Shown here one piece after another: positions 4,453-55,160 of a stretch of DNA of 64,000 nucleotides. Under the pieces are notes generated by a model. The model did not search any database, was not told the DNA's origin, and saw nothing but the letters and a program-made list of their open reading frames with translations. Position 1 is the first letter of the stretch, and every line of letters starts with the position of its first letter. The DNA is taken from the NCBI GenBank assembly GCA_029936675.1, contig JAPYSB010000010.1:1-64000 (forward strand), given 5' to 3'. The DNA comes from Dehalococcoidia bacterium (GTDB lineage Bacteria; Chloroflexota; Dehalococcoidia; Lucifugimonadales; UBA826). A program made the translations under genes and the position numbers.

Positions 4453-5445
4453 TTAATTCTCCGTGAAGTGGTCCCATCCGCCTGTTGTTATTGATATTTG
4501 GGTCCCGGAATTATCCACGGCATTTACATGCCCTGAACCAATTTCTATTTCTCCAACAATGTGTAGATCCATTTTGGTTGAATCAGAGATGTATTTGATA
4601 AGGGATTCGTGACCCGTGATCAATAATTCATAGTCTTCACCACCACTTACTGCCATTTCCTTGAAATTATCGGGAAATGATAATTTCAGTTCTTCGTGTA
4701 CGGGAATGGAATCTATATTTATAGTGGCATTAACGCTGCTGGCGACGCATATTTTCTTAAGATCATTCAAGAATCCATCACTAATGTCCATTCCTGTCTT
4801 AATTCCCATATCCAAGAGACTGATACCTTCGGGAATTCGTGGTTTTGGCAGATAATGCGCCTCGTAGAAATGTGATGATTTTTTGAGCTCGCCATTTAAA
4901 AGGAGTCTGAGGCCAGCATTCGAACAACCAAGAGCCCCGGTGACAGCGATAACATCCCCTGGAACGGCTGTTTTCCTTTTCATAGTTTCGGGTTTGTCTG
5001 TGGAACCAACTACTGTAATGGAAATGAAAAATGTGTCTGACTTCACTATATCCCCACCGACCAATTCTCCCCCGTAGGTATTTAAGAGATCTGAGAAACC
5101 TAAATAGAGATTTTCCAATTGTTCGACCAATATGTCTGCCCTCAATCCTAGGGTAACCACTGAATATACTGGTTCACATCCCATGGAGGCTATGTCGCTG
5201 TAATTTACAGCAAGCGATTTCCAACCCAGGTTCCGCATATCTACTTCATTACTGACGAAATGTACCTTGTCCACCATAGCATCGGTAGTGACAACCTGTA
5301 GATTACCGAGGTTACCTATTACCGCAGCGTCATCTCCGATGGCGACTTGTATTTTGCTTTTTGTATTGGGTGTAACGTTTTGTTCCAGCACTGCTTCCAG
5401 CCTGGCTATAAGGTCAAATTCGCTTATTTCTGATATTTTTGTCAT
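4453..5445 (-). CDS. thiL: Thiamine-monophosphate kinase
   Basis: ThiL phosphorylates thiamine monophosphate to the active cofactor thiamine diphosphate using ATP. The 330-residue length is normal. Visible family motifs are GDDAAVI (37-43), TTDAMVD (53-59), NYSDIASMGCEP (81-92), GGDIVKSD (130-137), GMDISDGFLNDL (218-229) and SGGEDYELL in the C-terminal part; the aspartates bind Mg-ATP. The thiamine diphosphate product would serve enzymes such as the TPP-dependent protein encoded near 46 kb. It is followed directly by a small unknown gene and is divergent from the enolase-superfamily gene at 5544. Confidence 0.95.
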   Translation of the reverse strand: MTKISEISEFDLIARLEAVLEQNVTPNTKSKIQVAIGDDAAVIGNLGNLQVVTTDAMVDKVHFVSNEVDMRNLGWKSLAVNYSDIASMGCEPVYSVVTLGLRADILVEQLENLYLGFSDLLNTYGGELVGGDIVKSDTFFISITVVGSTDKPETMKRKTAVPGDVIAVTGALGCSNAGLRLLLNGELKKSSHFYEAHYLPKPRIPEGISLLDMGIKTGMDISDGFLNDLKKICVASSVNATINIDSIPVHEELKLSFPDNFKEMAVSGGEDYELLITGHESLIKYISDSTKMDLHIVGEIEIGSGHVNAVDNSGTQISITTGGWDHFTEN

Positions 5446-5543
5446 TTAACTACGATTTTAATCTCTATGAAATATGACTTCGCCCCTACTAAGTGATATA
5501 AAAGGCCAAGTCATAATATATGCATTTCATGGGAGTACGGTAA

Positions 5544-6689
5544 TTGAAAATCACAGAAATTAAAACATTTCACATGTCTGCAACGCCACATAAATCAGAT
5601 GCCAACAACTGGTTGTTCCTTAAAATTTATACTGACACAGGTATTTACGGTGTCGGTGAGGGTAGTCTTCAATACAAAGATCTAGGCCTCACAGCAGAAA
5701 TTGAAGATTTTTCCAAATTTCTGATTGGAAAAGACCCTTTCGCGATCGAATTTATTTGGACATCCTTGTATCGGAGAGTGACATGGACGGGTGGTGCGGT
5801 AACTATGAGTGCTATAAGTGCTATAGATCTAGCGTTATGGGATTTAAAAGGTAAGGCTCTAGGAGTACCGGTGTACGAATTGTTAGGTGGGAAAGTTCGG
5901 GATGCGGTCCCACTATACGCAAATGGCTGGTTTGAGAATGCTGTTACCCCTAAAGACCACGCCGAGGCGGCTGTACAAACAGTGAAATCAGGGTACCCAT
6001 GCCTAAAGTTTTATCCATTCAAAGGTCAATATGTAACTACTCTTGAGAGAATAAAAAAGGGAGTTGAGTTAGTAAAGGCTGTAAGAGATGCGATTGGACC
6101 AGACATACAGATAGGAATCGATGTTAGGGCTAGATTGGATTTTTGGAGTGCATTGCAAGTTGCCGAAGAACTTATTCCTTATAAGATCTCCTGGATTGAG
6201 GAGCCTATACAGTTTGATAATCCAAAGTTGATGGGCGAATTTGCAAGAAAATCTAGGGTCCCGGTATCGACTGGTGAACAGCTGTACAACCGCTGGGATT
6301 TCCAACCATTGCTAGATGAAAAAGCTATTTCTATCATCCAGCCAGATATATGTCACGCTGGGGGGATTTCGGAACTTAGGAAAATAGCCTCTGCCGCAGA
6401 AACACAATATGTTAGTGTGGCTCCGCATAATTCCAACGGCCCAATATCGACCGCAGCAAGCCTTCATTTGGATATGAATATTCCTAACTGTTTCAAACAA
6501 GAGATATTTGTGAGCTTTTTGGGCAGATATGAAGCTATATTGACGAATCAGATTCCAATTCACGAAGGCTTTGCCACCCCTCCAGTCGGTCCAGGGTGGG
6601 GGACGGACATAAATGAGGAGGCCCTAAAGGAGTTTCCACCTTCTGATTACACGCCAGTAGATTCTGAACCTTACACCGAATTTTTCTAG
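5544..6689 (+). CDS. Enolase-superfamily dehydratase, galactonate-dehydratase-like
   Basis: This 381-residue protein of the mandelate racemase/muconate lactonizing family has the capping domain in residues 1-125 and the barrel after it. Metal-ligand candidates are D193 (GIDVRARLD), E219/E220 (WIEEP) and E245 (STGEQLYNRW). K155 lies in LKFYPF, and H295 in APHNSNGP resembles the catalytic His of D-galactonate dehydratases. The DxHGR sequence typical of true DgoD is replaced by DVRAR, so the substrate may differ. The start is a TTG with GGGAG eight bases upstream. It converges with another superfamily member across a 12-base gap. Expected reaction: dehydration of a sugar acid to a 2-keto-3-deoxy acid. 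Confidence 0.85.
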   Translation: MKITEIKTFHMSATPHKSDANNWLFLKIYTDTGIYGVGEGSLQYKDLGLTAEIEDFSKFLIGKDPFAIEFIWTSLYRRVTWTGGAVTMSAISAIDLALWDLKGKALGVPVYELLGGKVRDAVPLYANGWFENAVTPKDHAEAAVQTVKSGYPCLKFYPFKGQYVTTLERIKKGVELVKAVRDAIGPDIQIGIDVRARLDFWSALQVAEELIPYKISWIEEPIQFDNPKLMGEFARKSRVPVSTGEQLYNRWDFQPLLDEKAISIIQPDICHAGGISELRKIASAAETQYVSVAPHNSNGPISTAASLHLDMNIPNCFKQEIFVSFLGRYEAILTNQIPIHEGFATPPVGPGWGTDINEEALKEFPPSDYTPVDSEPYTEFF

Positions 6690-49250: not shown

Positions 49251-50591
49251 TTATAGGGAAATTTTGACCGATTTGTCCTTGACAGTAATAAGGGATACGT
49301 ACTCGTTGAGGAAGGCCTGCTGCTTGGTAAAAGATTGCTCCATCCATGTCTCCATAAAAGGTGCAACTTCCTCTGGGGTGCAACTTAAGAAAGCCTGCTC
49401 TCTGGCATTGTCCAAGGCCTGAAGGTATAGTTCCAATCTTCCAACTACAGATTGTCCTCGAGCCGTTTTTTTCATGAACTCCACGAATCTTTTCTCGGCA
49501 CTTACTACTTTAGTGAACCTGTTTTCTGCCGCGAGGCGGAGTTTCTTTTCCCCTTTTTGGCCTGAGACACTGTCTTCTAATTTTCCGTTCTGTACCATGG
49601 TGACTAACATTTTCAAGACTCTGGTTTCCAATTTGTCGGTGGTCCAAGTATGGTAGCCGCAAGTTCCCTGATTCCCCTTCGACTGACATTGGTAATACCG
49701 ATACGTATTTTTGACTCTTTCTCCCCCTTGCCTTTTCCAAATCTGTTTTCTAGTTACTCCCATCATAGTGTTGCCGCAATACCCGCACTGGCACAGACTA
49801 GAAAGTAAATAAGGTTCAAGGGTAGGAAATCGTTTGTATTTTCTTCTTTCCCTAACCTTGTCTTGAGCAGCTCTAAACAAGCCTGTATCTATGATGGCAT
49901 CGTGGTTTCTAGTCAACTTCAATCCGAAGCGTTGGTAGGTCCCGATGTAGGAAGAATTTTTCAATATATCTCGTACGGTGACTATATTCCATGATTTTCC
50001 TCTCCTCGTCCGAATATTTGAGTCATTCAAGAATCGAACTACTTTTCTGAGACCCATATCCTCGTTCACATACATTTCAAAAATTTGCCGAACCACCACA
50101 GCTTCTGGGTCTGTGATTGTAAATTCACCTGATTCAGTAGTAATGTAGCCAAAGGGAGGTTTCCCTAAGGATTTTCCCGACATTGCCCTGCTTTGCATCC
50201 CGTTTTTGATGTTGTTACTTTTTGAAACCGAAACCCCTGGCGCATTTATGTGTATAAGCGCATTCTGTAACACATCTGGATAATCATCATTTAAACAATA
50301 AAATGATGAATTGGCTTTTTCTACTGAAATCACATTTCTGGCCACAGATTCTAAATCAGATCCTATGTGCCGGGCATCCGGAATTACAATTAAGTAGCCT
50401 GCGGAATCTTTCTCAACGATATTTATAAGGTGTCTTAAATTTGAACTAGCCCCAATAGGGGCAAGCTCATCTTGCACGATCGAATTGATTTGATGATTGT
50501 ATTGGTCCGAGAAATGACCAACTGACGAGTGGAAATCACTTTGTTCTTGCCAAAAATCCACTAAATTATTGCAATATCCTATTACTCTCAT
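49251..50591 (-). CDS. Large serine recombinase-like protein with a degenerate, probably inactive catalytic domain
   Basis: This 446-residue protein has the Recombinase domain, with KSLGKPPFGYI near residue 140 and WNIVTVRDILKNSSYIGTY near 201. A zinc ribbon follows (C269/C272 and C302/C311), then a coiled-coil C-terminus, as in large serine recombinases. The N-terminal resolvase domain is worn. The Y-x-R-V-S catalytic serine motif reads Y6-C-N-N-L10, and the D-R-L-S-R loop reads D72-A-R-H-I76. The nucleophile and both key arginines are therefore missing, and the protein should bind DNA but not recombine it. Its ATG overlaps the COG1579 stop by four bases, and rnpB follows 42 bases downstream. 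No att sites or phage genes are nearby. Confidence 0.85.
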   Translation of the reverse strand: MRVIGYCNNLVDFWQEQSDFHSSVGHFSDQYNHQINSIVQDELAPIGASSNLRHLINIVEKDSAGYLIVIPDARHIGSDLESVARNVISVEKANSSFYCLNDDYPDVLQNALIHINAPGVSVSKSNNIKNGMQSRAMSGKSLGKPPFGYITTESGEFTITDPEAVVVRQIFEMYVNEDMGLRKVVRFLNDSNIRTRRGKSWNIVTVRDILKNSSYIGTYQRFGLKLTRNHDAIIDTGLFRAAQDKVRERRKYKRFPTLEPYLLSSLCQCGYCGNTMMGVTRKQIWKRQGGERVKNTYRYYQCQSKGNQGTCGYHTWTTDKLETRVLKMLVTMVQNGKLEDSVSGQKGEKKLRLAAENRFTKVVSAEKRFVEFMKKTARGQSVVGRLELYLQALDNAREQAFLSCTPEEVAPFMETWMEQSFTKQQAFLNEYVSLITVKDKSVKISL

Positions 50592-52938: not shown

Positions 52939-52979
52939 ATGGGTTAGGAAAATTCTAATATACATACGAGGAGGTGCGG

Positions 52980-55160
52980 GTGTTAGAGTTATATAACACT
53001 CTCACAAGAAAAAAATCTGCCTTAGTACCGCACGAAAAAGGCAAATTCAGTGTTTATACATGTGGGCCAACAGTCTACCGAGACGCCCATATCGGAAACC
53101 TGCGATCATATTTGATGGCCGATTGGATTCGACGGACATTGCAAGTTCTTGGCAATGAAGTTACCCATATAAAGAACATAACCGACGTCGGGCATATGAG
53201 GCAGGAGGTTCTTGAACAGGGTGAGGATAAAGTAATAGCGGCCGCTATAGCGGAGGGTAAGACTCCGGCCCAAATAGCACAGTTTTACACCCAGCGTTTT
53301 CTGCACGATGAACTGGCGATCAATATATTACCTGCCAACGAATTCCCCAAGGCAACGGAACATGTGAATGAAATGATTGAAATTATTGGTTCACTACTTC
53401 AATCATCTCTCGCATATGAAGTGGGCGGGAATATATATTATGATATTAATTCCTTTCCAACTTACGGCAATTTGTCAGGTAATATTCACGAATCAGAACT
53501 TCAGGAAGCTGTGAGAATTGAATCGGACCCTTTAAAAAAAGATCCTCGAGACTTTACCCTTTGGAAGAAAGCTGAGGAAGGAAGAACTTTAAAATGGCCT
53601 AGCCCTTGGGGCGACGGTTTCCCAGGTTGGCATATTGAATGCTCCGCTATGTCAATAAAATATTTAGGTAGACACATAGATGTTCATACCGGCGGTGTAG
53701 ACAATATATTCCCCCACCATGAGGGGGAAATTGCCCAAAGCGAAGGATATACCGGCTCCCAGGTAGTGAATCATTGGGTCCATGGCCAACACTTACTGGC
53801 CGATGGTGTGAAAATGGCTAAATCGGCCGGCAATGCCTTCATAATATCCGACTTGTTAGAGAGGGGAATTGATCCGCTGGCATTCCGTTATCTTTGTATG
53901 ACTGCCAAGTATCGGACGAGGATAAATTTTACATTCACTTCGTTAAAGGCCTCCGAAACAGCCCTCAATAAATTGCGTAGACACTACATTTTATTCAACA
54001 AGAGCTCTCAAAAAAAGAATTCAAACATTGAGGCACTCAAAGAATGGAACGAAAGGCTGATTGCAATTGTCTGTCAAGACCTGAATATGCCGGGATTACT
54101 AGATGCGATATGGAGATTAATAGAATCATCTGATGTAGAGGATTCAGATAAAGCGGAAATATTGAGATCGATTGATGCCTTGATGGGACTTGGATTGGAG
54201 TCTACAGGTGACATGTACGATTTACCTGAAAAAATAGTTGATAAATCAATGGAAAGAGCCGCGCTGCGAACATCTTTTGATTATAAAAACTCAGATCGAC
54301 TAAGGGCAGAGATTGAGAAACAGGGGTATTTGGTGGAGGATTCTAAAGATCGCACTACTGTAAGGGTTAAGGATTCCTCAGAAATCAGGGAAGAAAAGTG
54401 GAAAACAATATCTGCCTCCTCTGAAGTTGCCTCTAATATTTTTCTTGAATCCCTTATACCAGTCACAATAGGAATGGTTGTCAATGGCTATCCTGACGAT
54501 ACACGACGTTGTATTTCCAGTGTAATTAAATGGACTGATATTGACCAAACGGAAATAATTGTTTTGGACAATGGGTCCACTGATTCCACAGGGGAGCTTT
54601 TAGAAGAAATGACTCAGGGTCAAGAAAATCTGCAGGTTATGCATGCTGATCATTCTTTGGGTGACGGGTCTGCAAAAAATATTTTACTGAAGAAGGCAAA
54701 AGGAGAAGTCTTCATTCTTCTCGATCCAAGCGTAGAAATTAAGGGTGATTTCGTAAAGCGGATACAAGACTTGTTGGAGGACCCAGAGGTCGGCATAGCT
54801 GGTCTAGCTGGACTTAGAACAGAGGATTTATTGCATTTTCATGATGGCGAAGGAGAATCTGGACATATGGATGCAATGCAGGGTTATTGTTTCGCTTTGA
54901 AACGAGCAGACCTGCAAAAAGTCGGATTAATGAGAGAATCTTTCAGATATTACAGGAACCTGGATTTGGATTACAGTTTCCAATTCAAAGAACAGGGGTT
55001 CTCCGTCATAGCTGACCACACTTTACCTATGGAATTGCACGACCACAGAGGATGGACTGCTTTATCAGAAGGAGAAAGGGACGAGTTAAGTAGGAAAAAC
55101 TACGGTAGATTCCTTAAAAAATGGAGAGGCCGAACGGACCTGTTGGTCTCCAACGTGTAA
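52980..55160 (+). CDS. cysS: Cysteinyl-tRNA synthetase fused to a family 2 glycosyltransferase
   Basis: From the GTG at 52980 (GAGGAGG five bases upstream; a GTG at 52974 is within that site) the protein has 726 residues. Residues 1-470 are a complete class I CysRS: HIGN in AHIGNL (37-40), zinc ligands C28, C221 (HIECSAM), H246/H247 and E250, KMAKS (278-282), and a short DALR anticodon region ending in [17 protein letters not shown]. Residues 490-726 form a GT2 domain, [18 protein letters not shown] with [21 protein letters not shown] (DxD-like), and [19 protein letters not shown]. No stop or ribosome site separates the two parts. It charges tRNA-Cys; the second activity is unknown. Confidence 0.93.

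Follow-up and report, generated by a model that had tools for sequence, protein, structure and literature searches.

Several described systems come close to the protein that is the subject of this report. LysX is an aminoacyl-tRNA synthetase (aaRS) paralog fused to a transferase, and YadB is an aaRS-like protein that modifies tRNA (PMC9437257). The class-I aaRS-like ligases, including MshC, have been treated elsewhere (PMC2922099). Enzymes that glycosylate tRNA are also known, namely QTGAL and QTMAN, and their known role is in queuosine (PMC12518689). No description of a cysteinyl-tRNA synthetase (CysRS) fused to a GT2 glycosyltransferase domain was found in the open-access literature searched, which supports the suggestion made in the original prediction that such a fusion is novel; the fused protein is apparently undescribed so far. 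Because it passes the CysRS model TIGR00435 (402.2 bits, cut-off 340), it would readily be labelled as a plain cysteine--tRNA ligase and its extra domain overlooked. Our preferred reading, to which we give a probability of roughly 35%, is that it is a tRNA-Cys-directed glycosyltransferase.

The gene lies in a window of 64,000 nucleotides, the whole stretch of DNA that was analysed, from a Dehalococcoidia bacterium. A single stop-free frame on the forward strand runs from GTG at 52980 to TAA at 55158-55160 and encodes 726 amino acids. There is an alternative GTG start at 52974, but the one at 52980 is favored because it has a proper distance, 5 nt, from the GGAGG at 52970-52974 upstream of it. 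The features are as follows.

52970 to 52974, forward strand: Shine-Dalgarno-like GGAGG, 5 nt before GTG 52980 (sequence)
52980 to 55160, forward strand: fused gene, type-B CysRS, CysS_C and GT2, 726 aa, GTG start (open frame, Pfam, TIGR00435)
53025 to 53954, forward strand: CysRS catalytic domain, PF01406 (Pfam)
53088 to 53099, forward strand: HIGN, within the CysRS catalytic domain
53811 to 53825, forward strand: KMAKS, within the CysRS catalytic domain (motif KM[A/S]KS in 59 of 59 fused copies)
53955 to 54251, forward strand: CysRS helical segment between the catalytic and anticodon-binding domains (AF2 model; 1u0b alignment, residues 1-464)
54252 to 54365, forward strand: CysS_C-type anticodon-binding domain (PF23493, E 0.0044, below cut-off; residue conservation)
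54366 to 54452, forward strand: linker with a conserved S-S-S-x-E-V motif (alignments)
54453 to 55157, forward strand: GT2-fold domain (PF00535; GT-A fold; residue conservation)
54567 to 54569, forward strand: uridine-type Asp, D530, of the GT2 domain (conservation)
54723 to 54731, forward strand: DPS replacing DxD in the GT2 domain (conservation)
54963 to 54965, forward strand: base-position Asp, D662, of the GT2 domain (conservation)
55044 to 55046, forward strand: H689 of the GT2 domain (conservation)

One uninterrupted 726-residue frame holding both a CysRS and a GT2 domain had been predicted, and this is confirmed; there is no internal stop, and both Pfam domains exceed their cut-offs (tRNA-synt_1e, E 1.7e-91; Glycos_transf_2, E 1.1e-16, with 61.6 bits for the GT2 domain against the PF00535 cut-off of 23.3). 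The zinc ligands, HIGN and KMAKS are likewise present as claimed and kept in relatives, the ligands C28, C221, H246 and E250 being invariant in all 59 fused copies aligned. The full-length AF2 model has a pLDDT of 85 and a pTM of 0.82, and a model of the CysS_C-GT2 part has a pLDDT of 91 and a pTM of 0.84.

The fusion is real and conserved. A full-length fused protein is present in 28 of 60 relatives, mostly from the same order, at 44-92% identity, and pieces of it occur at contig ends in two more. When GTDB species genomes were scanned for the GT2 domain, 76 of the best 80 of 120 confirmed loci proved to be clearly fused and the remaining four are interrupted by contig ends or masked bases; all of these best 80 belong to SAR202/Dehalococcoidia or to unplaced Chloroflexi records, and members from outside the Chloroflexota may exist beyond them. 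Several fused loci are on single-contig chromosomes (e.g., OY282441 and OX638353). The recurrence of the same fusion in roughly half of the relatives sampled, in the GTDB loci and on complete chromosomes rules out an assembly artefact, and so an error at the junction is excluded and the fusion is a recurrent one in other SAR202 genomes. Matches in 24 of 294 genomes sampled from the class indicate a patchy distribution, and a GT2 profile search found fused proteins in many further families of the Chloroflexota; a search of plasmids for GT2 relatives gave weak generic GT2 matches only. The dN/dS values are 0.09-0.13 (about 0.1) in both the CysRS half and the GT2 half, which indicates purifying selection on both and rules out a pseudogene or a drifting glycosyltransferase half. 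The joint of the CysRS and the GT2-like domain is ancient.

The genes that surround the fused loci are mostly housekeeping genes. A pyruvate kinase, a Na/Ca exchanger and a MeaB-looking GTPase recur among them, and they provide no specific functional clue. A serine-recombinase-type gene (PF07508) at 49251-50591 of the window has relatives at nearly the same upstream position in 19 fused-gene loci, and it may be a domesticated recombinase. Long His-rich C-terminal tails, e.g., HTHEHKHWPDHSHTH, are present on fused proteins of families f114, f122, f139, f154 and f162 (L125, L140, L141, L142 and L144) and are perhaps metal-binding.

The fused protein has a CysRS paralog in its own genome, where a separate canonical CysRS (G000:C10) adjoins ispD-like and ispF-like genes. 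A further CysRS-family gene occurs in 29 of the 30 other fusion genomes, many of which also have an MshC-like gene. The 44 tRNA predictions of the source genome include one tRNA-Cys(GCA), and no second, dedicated tRNA-Cys was found among them. A CysRS tree groups the fused proteins into one clade (100/99) beside unfused 'type B' CysRSs, which have the motif NITDVGH; the Borrelia CysRS is near the fused clade, and MshC is far away in a clade of its own (100/99). This single clade beside the type-B enzymes suggests that the fusion probably arose once, within a type-B CysRS. In some Chloroflexota families (G352, G403, G417, G439, G543 and others; L151-L163), a type-B CysRS is apparently the sole full-length CysRS and is accompanied by an MshC-like gene. 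Genes of this MshC-like kind are frequent across the phylum.

The CysRS half had been described as having a short anticodon region, and this needs correction, as a CysS_C-type anticodon-binding domain is present. Its PF23493 score is 17.5 bits against a cut-off of 23, and the canonical CysRS of the source genome likewise falls below the cut-off with 18.0 bits. Residues R430, Y435, D439 and D454 of this domain are the equivalents of E. coli R427, W432, D436 and D451, which we take from the literature on 1U0B to be the residues that contact the anticodon. CysRSs are the best structural matches to the model of the fused protein; among them is the CysRS:tRNA-Cys complex 1u0b, which aligns over residues 1-464. 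This match and the passing of TIGR00435 argue for a tRNA-Cys-directed glycosyltransferase, and we infer that the CysRS part binds tRNA-Cys. Against this, the four residues may instead be conserved because the domain needs them to fold.

Since MshC is itself a CysRS paralog, one might expect the fused protein to act like MshC or BshC, that is, to join cysteine with an amino sugar that the GT2 domain produces and so give a mycothiol-type thiol. The source genome, in which no MshC was found, has an MshA-like GT4 (344 bits, cut-off 462.5) adjoining a weakly MshD-like GNAT (75 bits, cut-off 163) at G000:C3 178114-179298 (L229:6085-7305 and 5177-6082), and this pair would fit such a role. However, the fused protein reaches only 221.7 bits with the MshC model TIGR03447 (cut-off 485.1), and this score, the separate MshC clade and the retained anticodon-binding domain rule out membership of MshC. 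In addition, genomes of other families have both the fusion and MshC-like genes, and BshC (PF10079) has no match in the source genome, which is 96% complete. We therefore regard a cysteine ligase of this kind as quite improbable. The mycothiol or bacillithiol link in the original prediction is left weakly supported: the failed MshC model and the absence of BshC speak against it, while the MshA-like/MshD-like pair keeps it alive. That pair, unaccompanied by MshC or BshC, possibly represents an unusual thiol pathway in SAR202.

The model of the GT2 domain is a complete GT-A fold, with Z scores of 21 to ppGalNAc-T2 and 20.6 to PcManGT. Among 59 fused copies, there is no variation at its uridine-type Asp, the D and S of DxS, E+2, the base Asp or the final His of HxH, and this conservation, together with the dN/dS of about 0.1 in both halves, counts in favor of a tRNA-Cys-directed glycosyltransferase. 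The sequence LLDPS had been proposed to be DxD-like, but its third position is Ser. This D-x-S is found in all readable Dehalococcoidia copies and D-x-[S/A/G/N] in nearly all others, and no examined protein, fused or GT2-only, has an Asp at the third position, whereas a DxD is kept by the four further GT2 proteins of the source genome (DAD, DAD, DVD and DAD). Not every active glycosyltransferase requires a DxD, and so this departure makes GT2 activity less likely, yet still possible. Judging from the conserved residues, it is plausible, not assured, that the domain is catalytically active.

The absence of the metal-binding third Asp from all members examined counts against the preferred reading, and it would be expected if the GT2 fold had ceased to transfer sugars and now served an auxiliary CysRS as an appended domain for regulation or for binding (of tRNA, the ribosome, a nucleotide or a partner protein). 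Appended domains are frequent in aaRSs. Loss of the uridine-type Asp has the same bearing on the two explanations; 8 of 15 GT2-only proteins (see below) have this residue and those of f113/f125 do not, whereas all 15 retain the anticodon-domain residues. The base Asp is present in 59 of 59 fused copies and in 14 of the 15 GT2-only proteins. The site residues that are invariant in the fused copies and the retention of the full GT-A fold speak against an appended domain that has lost its enzymatic role, and we consider this explanation somewhat less likely than the preferred reading.

The GT2 profile search also found GT2-only proteins of about 290-340 aa, devoid of the CysRS catalytic part, in other Chloroflexota families. 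In these proteins, the GT2 domain is preceded by a CysRS-type anticodon-binding domain, as a profile search, Pfam and the conserved residues all indicate. PF23493 scores over its cut-off in three of nine that were scanned and below it in the others; equivalents of R427, D436 and D451 occur in 15 of 15, as does an aromatic residue at 432. Most GT2-only genomes have an unfused type-B CysRS elsewhere, and in some it is the only full-length CysRS found. The GT2 and type-B CysRS genes of f125 are adjacent, tail to tail, in seven genomes (four read directly). Across 400 Chloroflexota genomes, with analyst-chosen thresholds for the two genes, 92 have both, 14 have GT2 only, six have the CysRS only and 288 have neither (Fisher p 4e-67, counting genomes as independent and ignoring shared ancestry). 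Thus, relatives with separate CysRS and GT2 genes, which the original prediction held would count against it, do exist, but they do not undo the link between the two; because the separate GT2 protein keeps the anticodon-binding domain and accompanies a type-B CysRS, the link is strengthened. The retained domain and the co-occurrence support the prediction that a glycosyltransferase-like domain is coupled to tRNA-Cys or to cysteine, and the conserved residues of that domain, the co-occurrence and the f125 adjacency favor the tRNA-Cys-directed glycosyltransferase in particular. On the GT2 tree, the fused and GT2-only architectures need about three state changes, which would fit either an ancestor with GT2 alone or subsequent losses of the catalytic part of the CysRS. 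In G596 (L143:6980-8833), a 618-aa frame consists of about 300 aa that are weakly cyanophycinase/S51-like (below cut-offs), followed by CysS_C and then GT2.

The GT2-only proteins also bear on an arrangement like that of LysX, in which the fused CysRS would supply Cys-tRNA or Cys-AMP and cysteine would be attached to a glycan or glycolipid built or bound by the GT2 domain. An aaRS paralog with a transferase-type domain, in a genome where a separate CysRS is available for translation, is consistent with this. The GT2-only relatives, however, have no CysRS catalytic domain and yet have the anticodon-binding domain, and the surroundings of the fused genes showed no cluster of cell-wall or lipid genes. 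Retention of the domain that reads tRNA, and not of the one that activates cysteine, favors the tRNA-Cys-directed role over a cysteine-sugar ligase, and we find the LysX-like arrangement improbable. The fused protein might also be a spare or stress CysRS, e.g., one that resists an inhibitor or is adapted to scarce cysteine, with a GT2 domain of little importance. Its CysRS motifs are all intact, and the GT2-only genomes in which the unfused type-B enzyme is the only full-length CysRS found would agree with this; but a GT2 domain that is as constrained as the CysRS domain, and that persists in other lineages without the CysRS catalytic part, makes a spare CysRS very unlikely.

If the fused protein is a tRNA-Cys-directed glycosyltransferase, the CysRS part, or the anticodon-binding domain alone in the GT2-only relatives, would hold tRNA-Cys, and the GT2 domain, presumably active and with tRNA-Cys as its acceptor, would move a sugar from a sugar nucleotide onto the bound tRNA. 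The sugar would be placed either at the anticodon loop or on the tRNA in its charged form, Cys-tRNA. A mannose-1-phosphate guanylyltransferase-like gene is next to or near the GT2-only gene in three f122 genomes, which is a weak hint that GDP-mannose is the donor. The mostly housekeeping neighbors mentioned above count against such an enzyme. About as tentative is the broader proposal that a widespread Chloroflexota enzyme glycosylates tRNA-Cys, its GT2 domain being aimed by a CysRS or by the anticodon-binding domain only.

The protein appears to link cysteine tRNA with a glycosyltransferase fold across many lineages of a phylum to which the abundant marine SAR202 bacteria belong. Action of the GT2 domain on tRNA-Cys would make a tRNA glycosylation outside queuosine directly testable, and both the tRNA modification and this type of bifunctional aaRS would be new. 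If the domain has no such action, the protein would still be a clear example of an aaRS paralog repurposed with a second enzyme-type domain.

Among known proteins, the fused protein shares all of the catalytic motifs, the zinc ligands and the anticodon-binding domain with ordinary CysS (TIGR00435; the nearest solved structures are 3sp1 from Borrelia and 1u0b from E. coli with tRNA-Cys), but it is an extra paralog, carries about 235 aa of GT2 domain at its C terminus and forms its own clade within type B. With the GT2 family (PF00535; ppGalNAc-T2, PcManGT, 6p61 and WrtF) it has in common the GT-A fold, the uridine-type Asp and the base-position Asp; it differs in having DxS instead of DxD and in being joined to CysRS or CysS_C, and its subfamily was met only in the Chloroflexota in this analysis. 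MshC, the mycothiol cysteine ligase, is also a CysRS paralog with the same catalytic fold, but it belongs to another clade and has neither an anticodon domain nor a glycosyltransferase fusion. LysX (the MprF-LysRS of mycobacteria) resembles the fused protein in being an aaRS paralog that carries a further transferase-type domain and coexists with a separate canonical aaRS; the aaRS and the partner domain are different, and the fused protein has no MprF membrane transferase domain, Pfam finding CysRS and GT2 domains only. Finally, QTGAL, QTMAN and YadB/Glu-Q-RS are proposed as analogies only, for a sugar or an aaRS-like modification at the tRNA anticodon loop; QTGAL and QTMAN act on queuosine tRNAs and not on tRNA-Cys, have no CysRS part and are known from eukaryotes.
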